Of a stretch of 64,000 nucleotides of DNA, positions 19,460 through 23,558 are shown in pieces. The position numbers and the translations under genes were made by a program. The notes beneath the pieces were generated by a model. The model was not told the origin of the DNA. It was given only the letters and a program-made list of their open reading frames with translations, and searched no databases. Origin of the DNA: Tessaracoccus palaemonis (GTDB lineage Bacteria > Actinomycetota > Actinomycetes > Propionibacteriales > Propionibacteriaceae). The DNA lies in NCBI RefSeq assembly GCF_019316905.1, contig NZ_CP079216.1, positions 744,001 to 808,000 of the forward strand. The letters are read 5' to 3'. Numbering within the stretch: the stretch's first letter is position 1; every line of letters starts with the position of its first letter.

Positions 19460-20533
19460 GTGGCACTCACTATCGGAATCGTCGGCCTCCCCAACGCCGG
19501 CAAGTCGACCCTGTTCAACGCGCTGACCCGCAACGACGTCCTCGCGGCGAACTACCCGTTCGCGACGATCGAGCCGAACGTCGGCGTCGTCGGCGTCCCC
19601 GACGAGCGCCTCCCCGCGCTCGCGAGAGTGTTCAGCTCCGAGCGCATCGTGCCCGCCACCGTGAGCTTCGTCGACATCGCCGGCATCGTGAAGGGCGCCT
19701 CGCAGGGCGAGGGTATGGGCAACGCCTTCCTCGCCAACATCCGTGAGGCCGACGCCATCTGCCAGGTCACGCGCGTCTTCGACGACGAGGACGTCACGCA
19801 CGTCGACGGCAAGGTCGACCCCGCCAGCGACATCGACACCATCACCACCGAGCTGATCCTCGCCGACCTCGCCACCGTCGAGAAGGCGCTGCCGCGCATC
19901 GAGAAGGAGGCGCGGATCAAGAAGGAGTCGCAGCCCAAGGCCGCCGCCTTCAAGGAGGCGAAGGACGCCCTCGAGTCCGGCAAGGGCGTCCGTACCGCGG
20001 GCCTGGATCTCGAGCCCCTCTACGAGCTGCACCTCCTCACGGCGAAGCCCTACCTGTACGTCTTCAACTGCGACCAGGACGAGCTGGTCGACGAGGACCT
20101 GAAGGCCAGGATGCGCGACCTCGTCGCGCCCAACGAGGCGATCTTCCTCGACGCGAAGTTCGAGTCCGAGCTCGTCGAGATGGATGCGGACGAGGCCCGC
20201 GACTTCCTCGCCGAGATGGGTGTCGAGGAGCCCGGCCTCGACGTGCTCGCGCGCGTCGGCTACGACACGCTGGGCCTGCAGAGCTACCTGACCGCCGGTC
20301 CCAAGGAGGCCCGCGGCTGGACGATCAGGAAGGGCGCCACCGCGCCCGAGGCCGCCGGCGTCATCCACACGGACTTCCAGAAGGGCTTCATCAAGGCAGA
20401 GGTCGTCAGCTTCGACGACCTCGTCGCCGCAGGCTCGATGGCGGCCGCCAAGTCGGCCGGCAAGGTCCGCCTCGAGGGCAAGGACTACGTCATGGCCGAC
20501 GGCGACGTGGTGGAGTTCCGGTTTAACGTCTAG
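19460..20533 (+). CDS. ychF: Redox-regulated ATPase / GTPase YchF (Obg family)
   Basis: A 357-residue P-loop protein that binds ATP in preference to GTP and associates with ribosomes. The P-loop GLPNAGKST is at residues 9-17, DIAG is the switch motif, and the G4 motif is the divergent NCDQDE. A coiled-coil insertion covers about 130-200 and the TGS domain ends in VVEFRFNV. The last 26 bp recur at 21812-21837, so the current 3' end may come from an inserted element. The start is the GTG at 19460. Confidence 0.96.
   Translation: MALTIGIVGLPNAGKSTLFNALTRNDVLAANYPFATIEPNVGVVGVPDERLPALARVFSSERIVPATVSFVDIAGIVKGASQGEGMGNAFLANIREADAICQVTRVFDDEDVTHVDGKVDPASDIDTITTELILADLATVEKALPRIEKEARIKKESQPKAAAFKEAKDALESGKGVRTAGLDLEPLYELHLLTAKPYLYVFNCDQDELVDEDLKARMRDLVAPNEAIFLDAKFESELVEMDADEARDFLAEMGVEEPGLDVLARVGYDTLGLQSYLTAGPKEARGWTIRKGATAPEAAGVIHTDFQKGFIKAEVVSFDDLVAAGSMAAAKSAGKVRLEGKDYVMADGDVVEFRFNV
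20506..20531. other. Left boundary repeat of the ychF-linked insertion (attL-like)
   Basis: These 26 bp form the end of ychF (beginning CGTGGTGGAGTTCCG and ending AACGTCT). They match 21812-21837 at 24 of 26 positions; the two differences are synonymous third-position changes. This is the pattern left when an element integrates in the 3' end of a gene and restores it. Confidence 0.75.
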
Positions 20534-20566
20534 CGGCTGCCTCCCTGATGCCCTACCTTGACGGAA

Positions 20567-20581
20567 GGTCGGTCTCCGACC
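20567..20581 (+). terminator. Short hairpin after the present ychF stop
   Basis: A 6-bp perfect stem (GGTCGG/CCGACC) with a 3-base loop follows ychF inside the insertion. It is weak compared with the longer hairpin beyond the right boundary, and may or may not end transcription. Confidence 0.3.
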
Positions 20582-20629
20582 GGTTGCGACGATAGGGGCC
20601 GACAACTGCGGGAGCGTGGAGCTAGCGAT

Positions 20630-21442
20630 ATGATCCCAACTATGAAAGACATGCCGTGGCGACGCGCCATTCTCAAGGTAGTGTCGGAGGCCACGGAGCC
20701 TCTGCATTACGCCGAGATTGCTCAGCGGATACTGGACAACGGCCTGCGTGGTGAAGGCGGAGCTACTCCAGCTGCGACCGTTGCGGCCACCATCTCAATG
20801 TACCTGCAGAATGACCTCGTTCGCGTAGACAGGGGTGTCTACGCATTGGCTTCCTCGTCGCCGACCCCGGTGAGCCCCAAGGGTGCCGACCGTCCAGTCT
20901 CTTCGAGCAGCGAGGGATCAGCGGCTACCGAAGTCGATGCGGAAGACACAGGCTTCCTGAACGCTTTCGGTATGTTCTGGCGTCGCGAGGAGGTCGATTG
21001 GGAGCAGCGCGGACAGTCGCTTCTCGGTGCTCAGCTGAAGGCAGCGCAGCCGATCAACTTTGCTGATCAGGTCGGGGTCTACATCCTATATTCTGGTGAC
21101 CGTGTCATCTATGTAGGTCGCATCACCGAGCCCCGACTCGGACCCCGTCTCTGGGACCACACACGTGACCGGTTGACTGGTCGCTGGGACAGATTTTCGT
21201 GGTTCGGCGTCCGGGCGGTCGCTGATGACGGCAGTCTCGGTCAGGTCCCAGCAGGCAACTTCGCCGTCGATATGCTCGTAGCCACGATGGAGGCACTGCT
21301 GATCGAGGGGCTGGAACCCCCGCAGAATAGGCGCCGCGGCGACGGATTTAGCGCCACGGAGTTTATTCAGACTGTGGATCCTCAGATTGAACGCCGACGC
21401 GCACAGCAGTTCTTTCAGCGCCTTACCGGTGGGGAGCAATGA
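20630..21442 (+). CDS. HARE-HTH and GIY-YIG nuclease domain protein
   Basis: A 270-residue protein. Residues about 8-74 form a HARE-HTH (HB1/ASXL) winged helix with LHYAEIAQRIL and GATPAATVAATIS. A Ser-rich linker (about 75-105) follows. Residues about 147-240 form a GIY-YIG nuclease: GVYILY at 149-154, YVGR at 161-164, Arg173 and His177 in GPRLWDHTRDR, and the metal ligand Glu221 in MEALLIEGLEPPQN. All catalytic positions are intact. The ATG at 20630 has GGAG 9 nt upstream. HARE domains are known from restriction systems and chromatin proteins, so a DNA-targeting or defence role is possible but unproven. AT-richer than the neighbours. Confidence 0.8.
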   Translation: MIPTMKDMPWRRAILKVVSEATEPLHYAEIAQRILDNGLRGEGGATPAATVAATISMYLQNDLVRVDRGVYALASSSPTPVSPKGADRPVSSSSEGSAATEVDAEDTGFLNAFGMFWRREEVDWEQRGQSLLGAQLKAAQPINFADQVGVYILYSGDRVIYVGRITEPRLGPRLWDHTRDRLTGRWDRFSWFGVRAVADDGSLGQVPAGNFAVDMLVATMEALLIEGLEPPQNRRRGDGFSATEFIQTVDPQIERRRAQQFFQRLTGGEQ

Positions 21443-21811
21443 CGGTCTCCGTGGTCGTAGGGTTGCGGCGCGTCCAGTTCACCCCGGATTGACACAGCTG
21501 ACGCTGACGGAGGTCAACTCCTCTGACTCAGAGAGCAGCTGTCGCGCGCTCTCGTCCATCCGCGCTCTGACTTCGAGCGAGCGCTCGTCGATCCAGAGTC
21601 TTTCAAGGTGGGTGAGGCCGGTGGGATGACGTCAGTTTCACAAGCATGTGGTCGCGCACCGCGCGTTGTGTACGAGGTCCAGGAGGATGAGCTGCTGGTT
21701 CTTGTGCTGCGCGCCGGGCACCGCCGCGACCCCTACCGATGATCCGATGCGTCTGCCACTCTTACCCAAAGATGCTCACGGATGCCCAGCAAATGCTCAC
21801 AACGCGCGGAG
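21443..21811. other. Degraded segment of the insertion
   Basis: No complete gene. On the minus strand 21479-21631 is open and ends with a clean stop after SVSCVNPG; it reads like a protein C-terminus (ERLWIDERSLEVRARMDES) but has no start codon in its first half. The plus strand has the toxin fragment at 21662-21742. These look like leftovers of accessory genes. Confidence 0.4.
21662..21742 (+). pseudogene. C-terminal fragment of a RelE/ParE-family toxin
   Basis: The frame reads RVVYEVQEDELLVLVLRAGH followed by RRDPYR and a stop, which is the typical last beta strands and C-terminus of RelE toxins (YRVVYEV...VGHRRDVY). No N-terminus, start codon or antitoxin gene is present upstream. It is too short to act as a toxin. 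It marks the former presence of a toxin-antitoxin module in the insertion. Confidence 0.6.
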
Positions 21812-21837
21812 CGTGGTGGAGTTCCGCTTCAACGTCT
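21812..21837. other. Right boundary repeat (attR-like copy of the ychF 3' end)
   Basis: A second copy of the last 26 bp of ychF, encoding VVEFRFNV and a stop in a frame that has no gene before it. Two of 26 bases differ from the copy in ychF. It is followed at 21850 by a strong hairpin, as expected if this was the original end of ychF. Confidence 0.75.
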
Positions 21838-21849
21838 GATCTTGCCGTC

Positions 21850-21882
21850 GCGGCGAGGTGAAGGCCCCGAACGCCTCGCCGC
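21850..21882 (+). terminator. Displaced original ychF terminator (candidate)
   Basis: A perfect 9-bp stem (GCGGCGAGG/CCTCGCCGC) with a 15-base loop lies 12 bp after the second ychF end. With no gene directly before it, the simplest reading is that it terminated ychF before the insertion. Confidence 0.6.
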
Positions 21883-21924
21883 TCTGTGCCGAGCCACAGT
21901 GTCCGAGGTGCGCAGTACCGTCGG

Positions 21925-22163
21925 ATGATGAGTGTGCACTTCTACACCGCGACCAGCCTCGACGGGTTCATCGCCACGCCCGAGCACTCTGTGGACTGGC
22001 TACTTTCGCAGGCCTTCGCCGAAGCAGGCCCTATGAAACCATGCCGAGTTCCTCATCGGGATCGGTGCGCTCGTCATGGGGCTGGAAACATGGGAGTGGG
22101 TGCGTGGAGCCGGGGAGAAGTGGTCAAAGTGAGGCGCCGTCGTTCGTGCTGACACGTCGCGAG
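21925..22163 (+). pseudogene. Decayed RibD-C/dihydrofolate reductase-like gene
   Basis: The N-terminus MSVHFYTATSLDGFIATPEH and DWLL match small bacterial dihydrofolate-reductase-like proteins. Near 22036 an extra A shifts the frame: after it, the sequence continues in another frame as HAEFLIGIGALVMGLETWEWV. A second shift near 22125-22131 leads to EAPSFVLTRRE. The C-terminal half of the family is missing and replaced by unrelated sequence. At least two frameshifts plus truncation mean that it cannot make a working enzyme. Confidence 0.75.
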
Positions 22164-22332
22164 GACGACCCTCACCAAGGCCGAGAACTTCACTGTCAAG
22201 GTGCCGGCCTCGAAGGTCGGCGTCGCCATCAACCCGACGATGCGCGTGTCGTACACGCCGGACTCGAAGACGTCGAAGCACACGTCCAAGGGCCACGTCG
22301 TGGTGAAGTCGTCGCTGAAGGTCCGCCGCTGA
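22153..22332 (+). pseudogene. C-terminal fragment of an unrecognised, probably secreted protein
   Basis: An open stretch of 59 codons with strong high-GC codon bias encodes a Lys/Ser/Thr/Val-rich tail (TKAENFTVKVPASKVGVAIN to the terminal SSLKVRR) and then a stop. There is no start codon or upstream domain; it begins inside the end of the decayed reductase gene. A strong hairpin terminator follows at 22372, so this is likely the true 3' end of a gene whose front was deleted. Family not recognised. Confidence 0.5.
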
Positions 22333-22371
22333 CGCGACGGTCACCGTCGGCCGAAGGCTGACATCTGATTC

Positions 22372-22541: not shown

Positions 22542-23558
22542 GTGGCCACGGACCTGAACGTCAACCCCATCGTCCTGCAGCGCGCCGATCCGTGCGTCCT
22601 GCGCCACGACGGGCAGTACTACTTCACCGGTTCCTACCCGCTCTACGACCGCATCGTGCTGCGCCGAGCCGCGCGGCTCGATGACCTCCAGTCGGCCGAC
22701 GAGGTCACCATCTGGACCAAGCACGAGTCGGGGCCGCAGTCGCAGCTGATCTGGGCTCCAGAGATCCACCGCGTGGGCGACGCCTGGTACATCTACTACG
22801 CGGCGGCGCCGAACACGGACGGAACCGCCGACGCTCCGGGCGCCGACGAGACCTTCAACCACCGCGTCTTCGTGCTCGAGTGCACCGACGACGACCCCCT
22901 GACTGGAACCTGGGTCGAGAAGGGACAGGTCAACACGGGCTGGGAGTCGTTCGCACTGGACGCCACCTCGTTCGTGCACCGTGGCGAGCAGTACCTCGTC
23001 TGGGCGCAGCAGGACGTTGCCGTCAAGGGCCACTCCAACCTCTACATCGCGCGCATGGAGAACCCCTGGACGCTCGCGACCGATGCCGTGATGCTCTGCA
23101 AGCCCGAGTACGACTGGGAGATCGTCACGTTCTGGGTCGCCGAAGGGCCGTCTGTCCTCATCCGCGACGGCAAGGTTTTCCTGACCTACAGCGCGTCGGG
23201 CACCGGCATCGAGTACGCGATGGGCGTGCTCACCGCCGACGCCGACGCGGACCTCCTCGATCCGGCGTCGTGGACCAAGAGCCCCGACCCGGTCTTCGCC
23301 TCCGACCCCGAAGTCGGCATCTACGGGCCCGGTCACAACAGCTTCACCGAGACCGCCGACGGGCAGACCGTGCTCGTGTACCACGCCCGCACCTACACCG
23401 AACTCGTCGGCGATCCCCTCTGGGAGCCGAACCGCCAGGCCTGCGCCCAGATCCTGCCGTTCGACGCCGATGGGAACCCCGTCTGGGGCACGCCGATCCC
23501 TCTGACGCGACCGGCCCCGACATCGGTCGACGTCCTCGGCCTCGACGGCAGCTTCTGA
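22542..23558 (+). CDS. Glycoside hydrolase family 43 protein (alpha-L-arabinofuranosidase or beta-xylosidase type)
   Basis: A 338-residue, five-bladed propeller glycosidase without signal peptide, so it acts on imported oligosaccharides. Catalytic residues by position: base Asp16 in RADPCVL, pKa-modulating Asp139 in ALDATSFVH and acid Glu200 in WVAEGPSVL. QLIWAPEIHRVGDAWYIYYA is a GH43 hallmark. The GTG at 22542 has AGGAG 7 nt upstream. No transporter or other sugar gene is beside it, which is unusual; the LacI-type palindrome upstream suggests sugar control from a distant regulator. Confidence 0.87.
   Translation: MATDLNVNPIVLQRADPCVLRHDGQYYFTGSYPLYDRIVLRRAARLDDLQSADEVTIWTKHESGPQSQLIWAPEIHRVGDAWYIYYAAAPNTDGTADAPGADETFNHRVFVLECTDDDPLTGTWVEKGQVNTGWESFALDATSFVHRGEQYLVWAQQDVAVKGHSNLYIARMENPWTLATDAVMLCKPEYDWEIVTFWVAEGPSVLIRDGKVFLTYSASGTGIEYAMGVLTADADADLLDPASWTKSPDPVFASDPEVGIYGPGHNSFTETADGQTVLVYHARTYTELVGDPLWEPNRQACAQILPFDADGNPVWGTPIPLTRPAPTSVDVLGLDGSF

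Follow-up and report, generated by a model that had tools for sequence, protein, structure and literature searches.

Herein, we describe a small insert in a stretch of 64,000 nucleotides (the window) from the actinobacterium Tessaracoccus palaemonis. The insert lies at the 3′ end of ychF, which encodes a conserved GTPase related to translation. We consider it probable, at roughly 0.7, that a clade of large serine integrases uses the end of ychF as its bacterial attachment site (attB), and that the insert is a recombinase-free cassette which an integrase-bearing element carried in and left behind. Comparison with related sequences shows a hotspot at this gene end, its association with the integrases, a common anatomy of the attachment sites and the presence of the same cassettes in different genera; from these we infer the carry-and-leave step and the arrival of the window insert by it. 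Overall, the insert looks like one unit of a recurring cassette array behind ychF in many actinobacteria. The features of the locus, in window coordinates and with offsets counted from the GT of GTGGAGTTCCG, are as follows.

19460..20533, + strand: ychF (Pfam YchF-GTPase_C, 9.8e-39); its last codons are the attachment site, of attB type
20510..20520, + strand: ychF-proximal core GTGGAGTTCCG, read from the sequence; the same core was used for locating other sites
20510-20511, + strand: proposed crossover dinucleotide GT, placed at the symmetry centre of free phage attachment (attP) sites
20525..20531, + strand: AACGTCT motif at +14 from the centre, an attB-type right half (B′), read from the sequence
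20521..21815, + strand: the cassette (insert), delimited by both cores; 61% G+C; no recombinase found
20642..21442, + strand: cargo gene of 266 amino acids, putative nuclease (HARE-HTH domain, Pfam 5.2e-08)
21784..21815, + strand: right end of the cassette, an attP-type left half (P arm), read by eye against the consensus of 75 distinct internal arms
21816..21839, + strand: distal site with core and displaced ychF end (VEFRFNV, stop), AACGTCT at +14, an attB-type right half, read from the sequence
21850..21882, + strand: hairpin with an 11-bp stem beyond the displaced end, possibly the former ychF terminator

The genome of the window (G000; G and L numbers denote the genomes and fetched loci compared) contains a single full-length match to ychF, and its YchF protein ends in VVEFRFNV. 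The sequence confirms what a preliminary description of this DNA had reported, namely that the final 26 nucleotides of ychF (20506–20531) recur at 21812–21837, offset by 1,306 bp and identical at 24 of 26 positions (92%), with two synonymous differences (CGG TTT / CGC TTC). A 25-nt form of the repeat, allowing up to three mismatches, has only these two sites in the 3,204,344-base genome, both at this locus, and thus the repetition is not due to chance. The same description held that nothing but AT-richer DNA separates the copies. The composition is indeed lower in G+C (61.4% versus 69.5% for the window, with 1.1% of the window's 1,280-bp steps equally low), but one clear gene, the 266-residue cargo gene at 20642–21442, lies between them (its nuclease was mentioned elsewhere in that description). 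The hairpin that was taken for the ychF terminator is present, and the 63-nt stretch around it (21838–21900) folds at −27.2 kcal/mol (z −1.99), whereas the terminator scan finds no site at 21850–21882. In line with the earlier statement that no integrase is present, Pfam detected no integrase domain in the three open reading frames scanned at or behind it, and comparison of the insert with nine serine integrases gave no convincing match, a 27-residue one (E 0.037) not being accepted as a remnant. No tRNA genes occur within the window. With attachment sites at both ends and no recombination genes, the insert has the composition of a cis-mobilisable element (CIME).

In relatives, large serine integrases are encoded at exactly this point. 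An 8.5-kb element lies directly 3′ of ychF in G022 (L013, 348–8874) and bears a large serine integrase at its far end, together with a phage capsid protein and a primase. The integrase has Resolvase (5.1e-31) and Recombinase (2.3e-19) domains, and the same pair of domains is found in both integrases scanned. The G022 element is satellite-like, and the YchF tail of this genome is cut to HS. Searching with the G022 integrase, with at most 11 candidates scored per genome, yielded matches in 30 of the 149 genomes of the family; ten of them share at least 52% identity in the catalytic part, the others 30–37%. In all ten genomes with the closer matches, the integrase belongs to the element that directly follows ychF, and no core occurs from the gene to the end of this element (the loci of G039, G062, G077 and G133 were extended by one further stretch to place it). 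Elements with both ends seen measure 8.5–20.8 kb; these are the larger, integrase-bearing islands that the preliminary description had advised looking for. Class-wide, a profile of nine integrases retrieved 130 relatives, and the best 80 loci, which were kept, span Corynebacterium, Nocardia, Actinomyces, Rothia, Kocuria, Mycobacterium and others. The fetched flank contains ychF in 45 of these best 80 loci; for 29 of the other 35, the gene was read elsewhere in the genome and had a non-native end in 19 cases, a native FNV end in six and an unreadable one in four. Among 50,697 phage records searched with two integrases at E ≤ 1e-30 (113 and 30 records matched), none reached 60% identity, and a Microbacterium phage with a 43% integrase match has no core in the 3.9 kb read. 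Viral contigs from IMG/VR (L181–L189) carry ychF-type integrases, three of them with clearly symmetric attP-like sites.

The anatomy of the sites fits this association. On attP, the zinc-ribbon domain of serine integrases binds 5 bp farther from the centre than it does on attB (PMC3783163). Of 35 YchF proteins in the genus, 19 end in FNV, one in FNI and 15 otherwise, and where an integrase is present the tails are mostly not FNV (for example, TGLTSGGKK, SGLTSGGKK, HGATSKK and FNVT). We scored 69 ychF ends across the class without any right-arm-motif filter, leaving out five without a readable core and 35 loci without ychF in reach: AACGTCT was best placed at +14 in 8/8 native ends, and at +19 in 58/61 non-native ones. 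Such anatomy leads us to read the ychF end as attB and to suppose that integrase elements leave an attL-type (left junction) end at ychF.

Sites further downstream give the complementary picture. We collected 131 sites, filtered by the right-arm motif at three offsets or by the last 12 bases of the left arm, and removed two by hand (L038 17865 and L044 11167), which left 129. The filter biases right-arm counts toward those offsets, while the +19 motif of the left arm lies outside it. Fifty-two sites were classed by letter patterns as having a ychF-like left arm, a class that takes in the second ychF ends of L037 and L057 as well as sites in L051 and L060; the remaining 77 are called internal. 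The right half shows the motif at +14 in 63/77 internal sites and at +19 in 3/77, versus 30/52 and 17/52 for sites with a ychF-like left arm (Fisher P 2e-5 for the +19 halves, not corrected for kinship; sites from related genomes are not independent). On the other side, internal left arms match AACNTCT with a mean of 3.45 of 6 bases at outward +19 and no more than 1.97 at any other offset, and 21 of 75 distinct arms reach at least 5/6 bases uniquely at +19, against 0.39 expected from shuffles. None of 38 ychF-like left arms reaches 5/6, although for these arms, too, +19 has the top mean (2.89), which it shares with +23. Since attP-type left halves are thus joined to attB-type right halves within rows, the internal boundaries appear to be mostly of attR (right junction) type. 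Finally, 12 of 80 viral loci (integrase at least 44% alike) were read, and of five attP-like sites picked there by hand, three have 13–14 of 19 outward positions symmetric, which none of 2,000 shuffles equalled.

Displaced ychF ends recur in other genomes. Within the genus (39 genomes, ychF located in 36), pairs of the ychF-end pattern 0.8–1.3 kb apart occur in four genomes, G000 included, and further single matches are displaced ends up to 20 kb behind ychF. Not counting G106 and G145 (whose copies lie on both strands), 21 of the family's 149 genomes, G000 among them, have two or more ychF ends on one strand, with no matches for a reversed control pattern. Together with the two sites in G000, this argues against the scattered occurrence that the preliminary description had named as a possible objection. 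In a class sample of 295, 21 of 294 genomes besides G000 had at least two ends on one strand (control pattern, one match), and in the 13 of these 21 with positions listed every pair lies within 6.1 kb. All these counts are lower bounds, because a ychF with another tail escapes the pattern. The core GTSGARTTYMG, leaving out ychF's own end, lies 63 times in the direction of ychF and four times in reverse in 50 loci; six further loci add 22 forward and no reverse cores, but were oriented by the core itself and so provide no control. Arrays may be long: G038 has eight ychF ends in 20 kb and G058 seven, own ends included, and G133 seven besides its own. A second, broken ychF copy with the attP-type tail FNATSGERK stands inside the cassette row of G038 (L037, 8786–10025, in ychF orientation). 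The preliminary description had regarded displaced ends in relatives without the nuclease gene as grounds for abandoning integration. Such ends do exist; as they belong to other cassettes of the same kind, they speak only against a one-off event, and site-specific integration at the ychF end, with restoration of that end, is supported by the comparison with relatives.

The cassettes return as units, and those at differing positions in different genomes have sequence in common from the core onwards. From different genera, G025 (at ychF) and G112 (behind an integrase element) have a cassette in common: the 745 bp that begin at the left core are 97% identical, and the 314 bp that reach the right core 85%. 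Likewise, G006, whose cassette adjoins ychF, and G039, where it stands second in the row after an integrase element, are from different genera and agree at 96% in stretches of 2,369 bp and of 207 bp, again ending at both cores; their YchF proteins are 91% and 74% identical to that of G000, respectively. Duplicates of a cassette within one row were found in L037, L046 and L010.

These observations induce us to propose the following scenario. Integrase elements, satellite- or island-like, would insert into the final codons of ychF, and YchF would thereby acquire a new tail. Behind them stand rows of short recombinase-free cassettes, most ending with an attP-type left and an attB-type right half and thus resembling attR. 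With several attR in a row, the attL at ychF could pair with a distal attR rather than with the element's own. The resulting circle, consisting of the element and a neighbouring cassette, would be a normal attP circle, able to integrate at the ychF of another cell. If the element later excised alone through its own attR, the cassette would stay behind; ychF would regain its FNV ending from the left half of the cassette, and the old ychF end would be displaced to the far side. As regards the pairings, serine integrases recombine attP with attB, attL × attR requires a factor from the phage, and no reaction occurs between other pairs (PMC3783163). The scenario also predicts three features that are indeed observed: integrase elements take the first place after ychF, +19 tails occur mainly at the gene itself, and recombinase-free cassettes mostly have +14 left ends. 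The layout of the window, with a +14 half at ychF and a P arm plus a +14 half at the far end, is the expected outcome: the restored ychF end is of attB type and not of the attP type that direct integration would leave.

Several observations weigh against this proposal. Eight of the 69 scored ychF ends are native in spite of an integrase beside or with them. Among the ten integrase-bearing genomes of the family, +19 is the sole best offset in seven, tied in two (G077 and G113) and absent in G022. The three internal sites with a +19 right half do not fit, nor do the 9/129 sites with the motif at +21, which are unexplained. The remaining two viral sites have 10/19 (P 0.0125) and 7/19 (P 0.18) symmetric positions. 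In the window itself, the P arm has the AACNTCT variant at outward +19 (21791–21797, minus strand) with 4/6 bases, and G000 has no integrase of the clade, its best match (37%) lying away from the site. Both shared cassettes differ inside by 0.6–1.1 kb, and the other eight pairs compared show partial sharing or lower likeness. No circle or excision product was observed. As to the empty-site strains suggested in the preliminary description, relatives with a single ychF end and no further copy in the 11–20 kb read do occur, such as G001 (L017), G014 (L030) and G030 (L027), but no empty-site partner with the right flank of G000 was found among close relatives.

The +21 class is represented at L012, L018, L025, L032 (7858), L044 (3266), L051 (8919) and L052 (5146), with positions in ychF orientation and with YchF tails FAL, FAV and FSL in three of them. 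The stretches at L012, L018 and L025 showed no integrase of the clade, and these right halves perhaps belong to another integrase lineage.

The strongest competitor, to which we nevertheless give clearly less than even odds, is plain decay: the small cassettes would be integrase elements that lost the integrase by internal deletion, their remnants piling up without any carrying. Traces of such a process are visible, since a truncated integrase N-terminus survives in L053 and L060, next to the P arm and some 60 bp away from the core, the integrase of G133 is broken, and some small cassettes with an attP-type tail (L029 and L043) have no integrase. Decay of integrase elements therefore also contributes. 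Alone, however, it would leave a +19 tail at ychF, yet the internal sites mostly continue with an attB-type (+14) half (the 63/77 above), and two cassettes of this +14 type recur in different genera, cut at both cores. It is unlikely, in our view, that a different recombinase moves the small cassettes as integron-like units through the junction of P arm and B′. This would agree with left ends like GTTTAACGTCTAGCGTTAWTGAC, which are alike beyond ychF's own bases, with the part GTTTAACGTCTAGCG, which stands before higBA and before the window's nuclease too, and with the existence of the third, +21 class of right halves. On the other hand, the halves match those of the serine integrase itself, and no tyrosine-recombinase match was found near ychF in the 14 relatives searched (G000 was not among them, and other recombinase families were not searched). 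An island or integron-type unit with a tyrosine integrase was likewise dismissed, there being no such domain in the insert's reading frames or near ychF in these relatives.

Two further explanations appear much weaker. An origin of the second ychF end by local duplication, or as a scar of homologous recombination, with no site-specific step, seems very improbable: longer duplicated ychF ends do exist in L057 (G101) and L059 (G145, where the copy is on the opposite strand, some 13 kb off), yet most internal sites cease to match ychF left of the core and have the common P arm instead, and the shared cassette ends already disfavour the idea. Hardly more credible, and if anything less so, is homing, in which the nuclease would cut element-free ychF ends and be copied in by repair while the two synonymous changes protect the carrier. 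The nuclease-like gene is the only clear gene of the insert and the end is synonymously recoded, as homing would have it; however, the gene is found in one of 38 other genomes of the genus, away from ychF, and other cassettes at the site carry other genes. We therefore disfavour a homing endonuclease element, the nuclease not being common to the elements at the site.

If the cassette reading holds, its nuclease-like gene is best regarded as cargo. The protein contains a stretch that resembles the GIY-YIG motif. The Pfam scan gave no GIY-YIG match, PADLOC and NCBIfam gave no match at all, and no solved structure was matched by sequence; as no model matches, it is the motif that underlies this reading. 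The one other occurrence in the genus, in G002 (L008, 1501–2298), encodes a 79% identical protein, and the DNA similarity between G002 and the window insert is confined to the cargo gene. A 33% relative of the protein is encoded on a Solidesulfovibrio plasmid. Cassettes at the same site carry different genes from that of the window. Among 120 cargo proteins, the matches listed include HTH_3 (15), HigB-like toxins (4) and PIN (2), and HigA antitoxins account for two of a set of ten proteins examined. Against a defence library, the matches listed include one protein each for an oligonucleotide cyclase, a 2TM effector, a type III methyltransferase and SoFic, and six proteins for the candidate system PDC-S01. 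These counts concern proteins called by a simple reading-frame rule, some from weak frames, with no background control, and draw on the first 25 matched families out of 118 and out of 184, respectively.

The flank of the insert deserves a comment. Positions 21886–22333, 3′ of the displaced end, hold apparent pieces of degraded genes (one resembling the start of RibD_C, at E 0.15 only, and a short one resembling a C-terminus), followed by a GH43 gene at 22542–23558. In G010, the nearest genome, another array stands at ychF, beside which this genome matches only the last part of the GH43 gene; its collinearity with G000 returns 1.5 kb further on.

Should our interpretation be correct, the ychF gene joins the known docking sites of mobile DNA, and the varied C-terminal tails of YchF in actinobacteria find an explanation. 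The arrays would also be a place to look for new phage-defence genes, and the integrases form a set with predicted, paired attB and attP sites. It is tempting to go further and to suppose an integron-like capture of genes by serine integrases, with ychF as the anchor across Actinomycetes, phage-type elements as shuttles that collect, deliver and drop recombinase-free cassettes via attR, and the arrays as a stock of defence and toxin–antitoxin genes; we put this forward as a possibility that falls somewhat short of even odds.

As for what is already known, ychF as an integrase target in actinobacteria was not found in the open-licence literature searched. YchF is not named in the main text of a survey of thousands of serine integrases (PMC10083194), nor did a term search return it from a survey of Mycobacterium prophages (PMC10654092). 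A pneumococcal prophage does adjoin ychF, lying between a DUF951 gene and ychF at a 26-bp site (PMC8637289), upstream of ychF (PMC10383233); it thus occupies the other side of the gene, at a 26-bp site of another sequence. Phage serine integrases of the A118/phiC31 type resemble those described here in having Resolvase and Recombinase domains and a motif that lies 5 bp farther from the centre in attP than in attB (PMC3783163). Here, however, the target is ychF, attL replaces the last residues of the protein, and rows of attR-like sites stand behind.

The closest known systems are CIME accretion and the staphylococcal cassette chromosome (SCC) at rlmH. Both SCC and the enterococcus cassette chromosome are serine-recombinase cassettes at the end of rlmH (PMC6222049) and share with our case large serine recombinases, a location at the 3′ end of a conserved gene, flanking direct repeats and remnants adjoining the site; the differences are the target, ychF and not rlmH, and the actinobacterial hosts. 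Integron gene cassettes, for their part, form rows of small units in the same orientation, with new units entering at the anchored end and with toxin–antitoxin and defence cargo. The ychF arrays are alike in all of these respects, but no tyrosine integrase was found near ychF in the 14 relatives, and double-strand att halves stand in place of attC. CIME accretion and cis-mobilisation are reportedly the subject of works by Pavlovic (2004) and Bellanger (2011). Tandem accretion with cis-mobilisation is known for CIMEs related to integrative and conjugative or integrative and mobilisable elements (PMC5704250), and the likeness extends to recombinase-free elements between att sites, tandem accretion at one gene end and, as proposed here, joint excision with a complete neighbour. 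What differs is the combination of a serine integrase with ychF, the size of many units (only 0.35–3 kb) and the carrying, which here is inferred only. Moreover, unlike in CIMEs, the cassettes mostly begin with an attB-type half, and so ychF gets its normal end back. Overall, if our reading is right, the ychF arrays stand beside integrons and CIME accretion as a counterpart built on serine integrases, whose half-sites are readable by eye.

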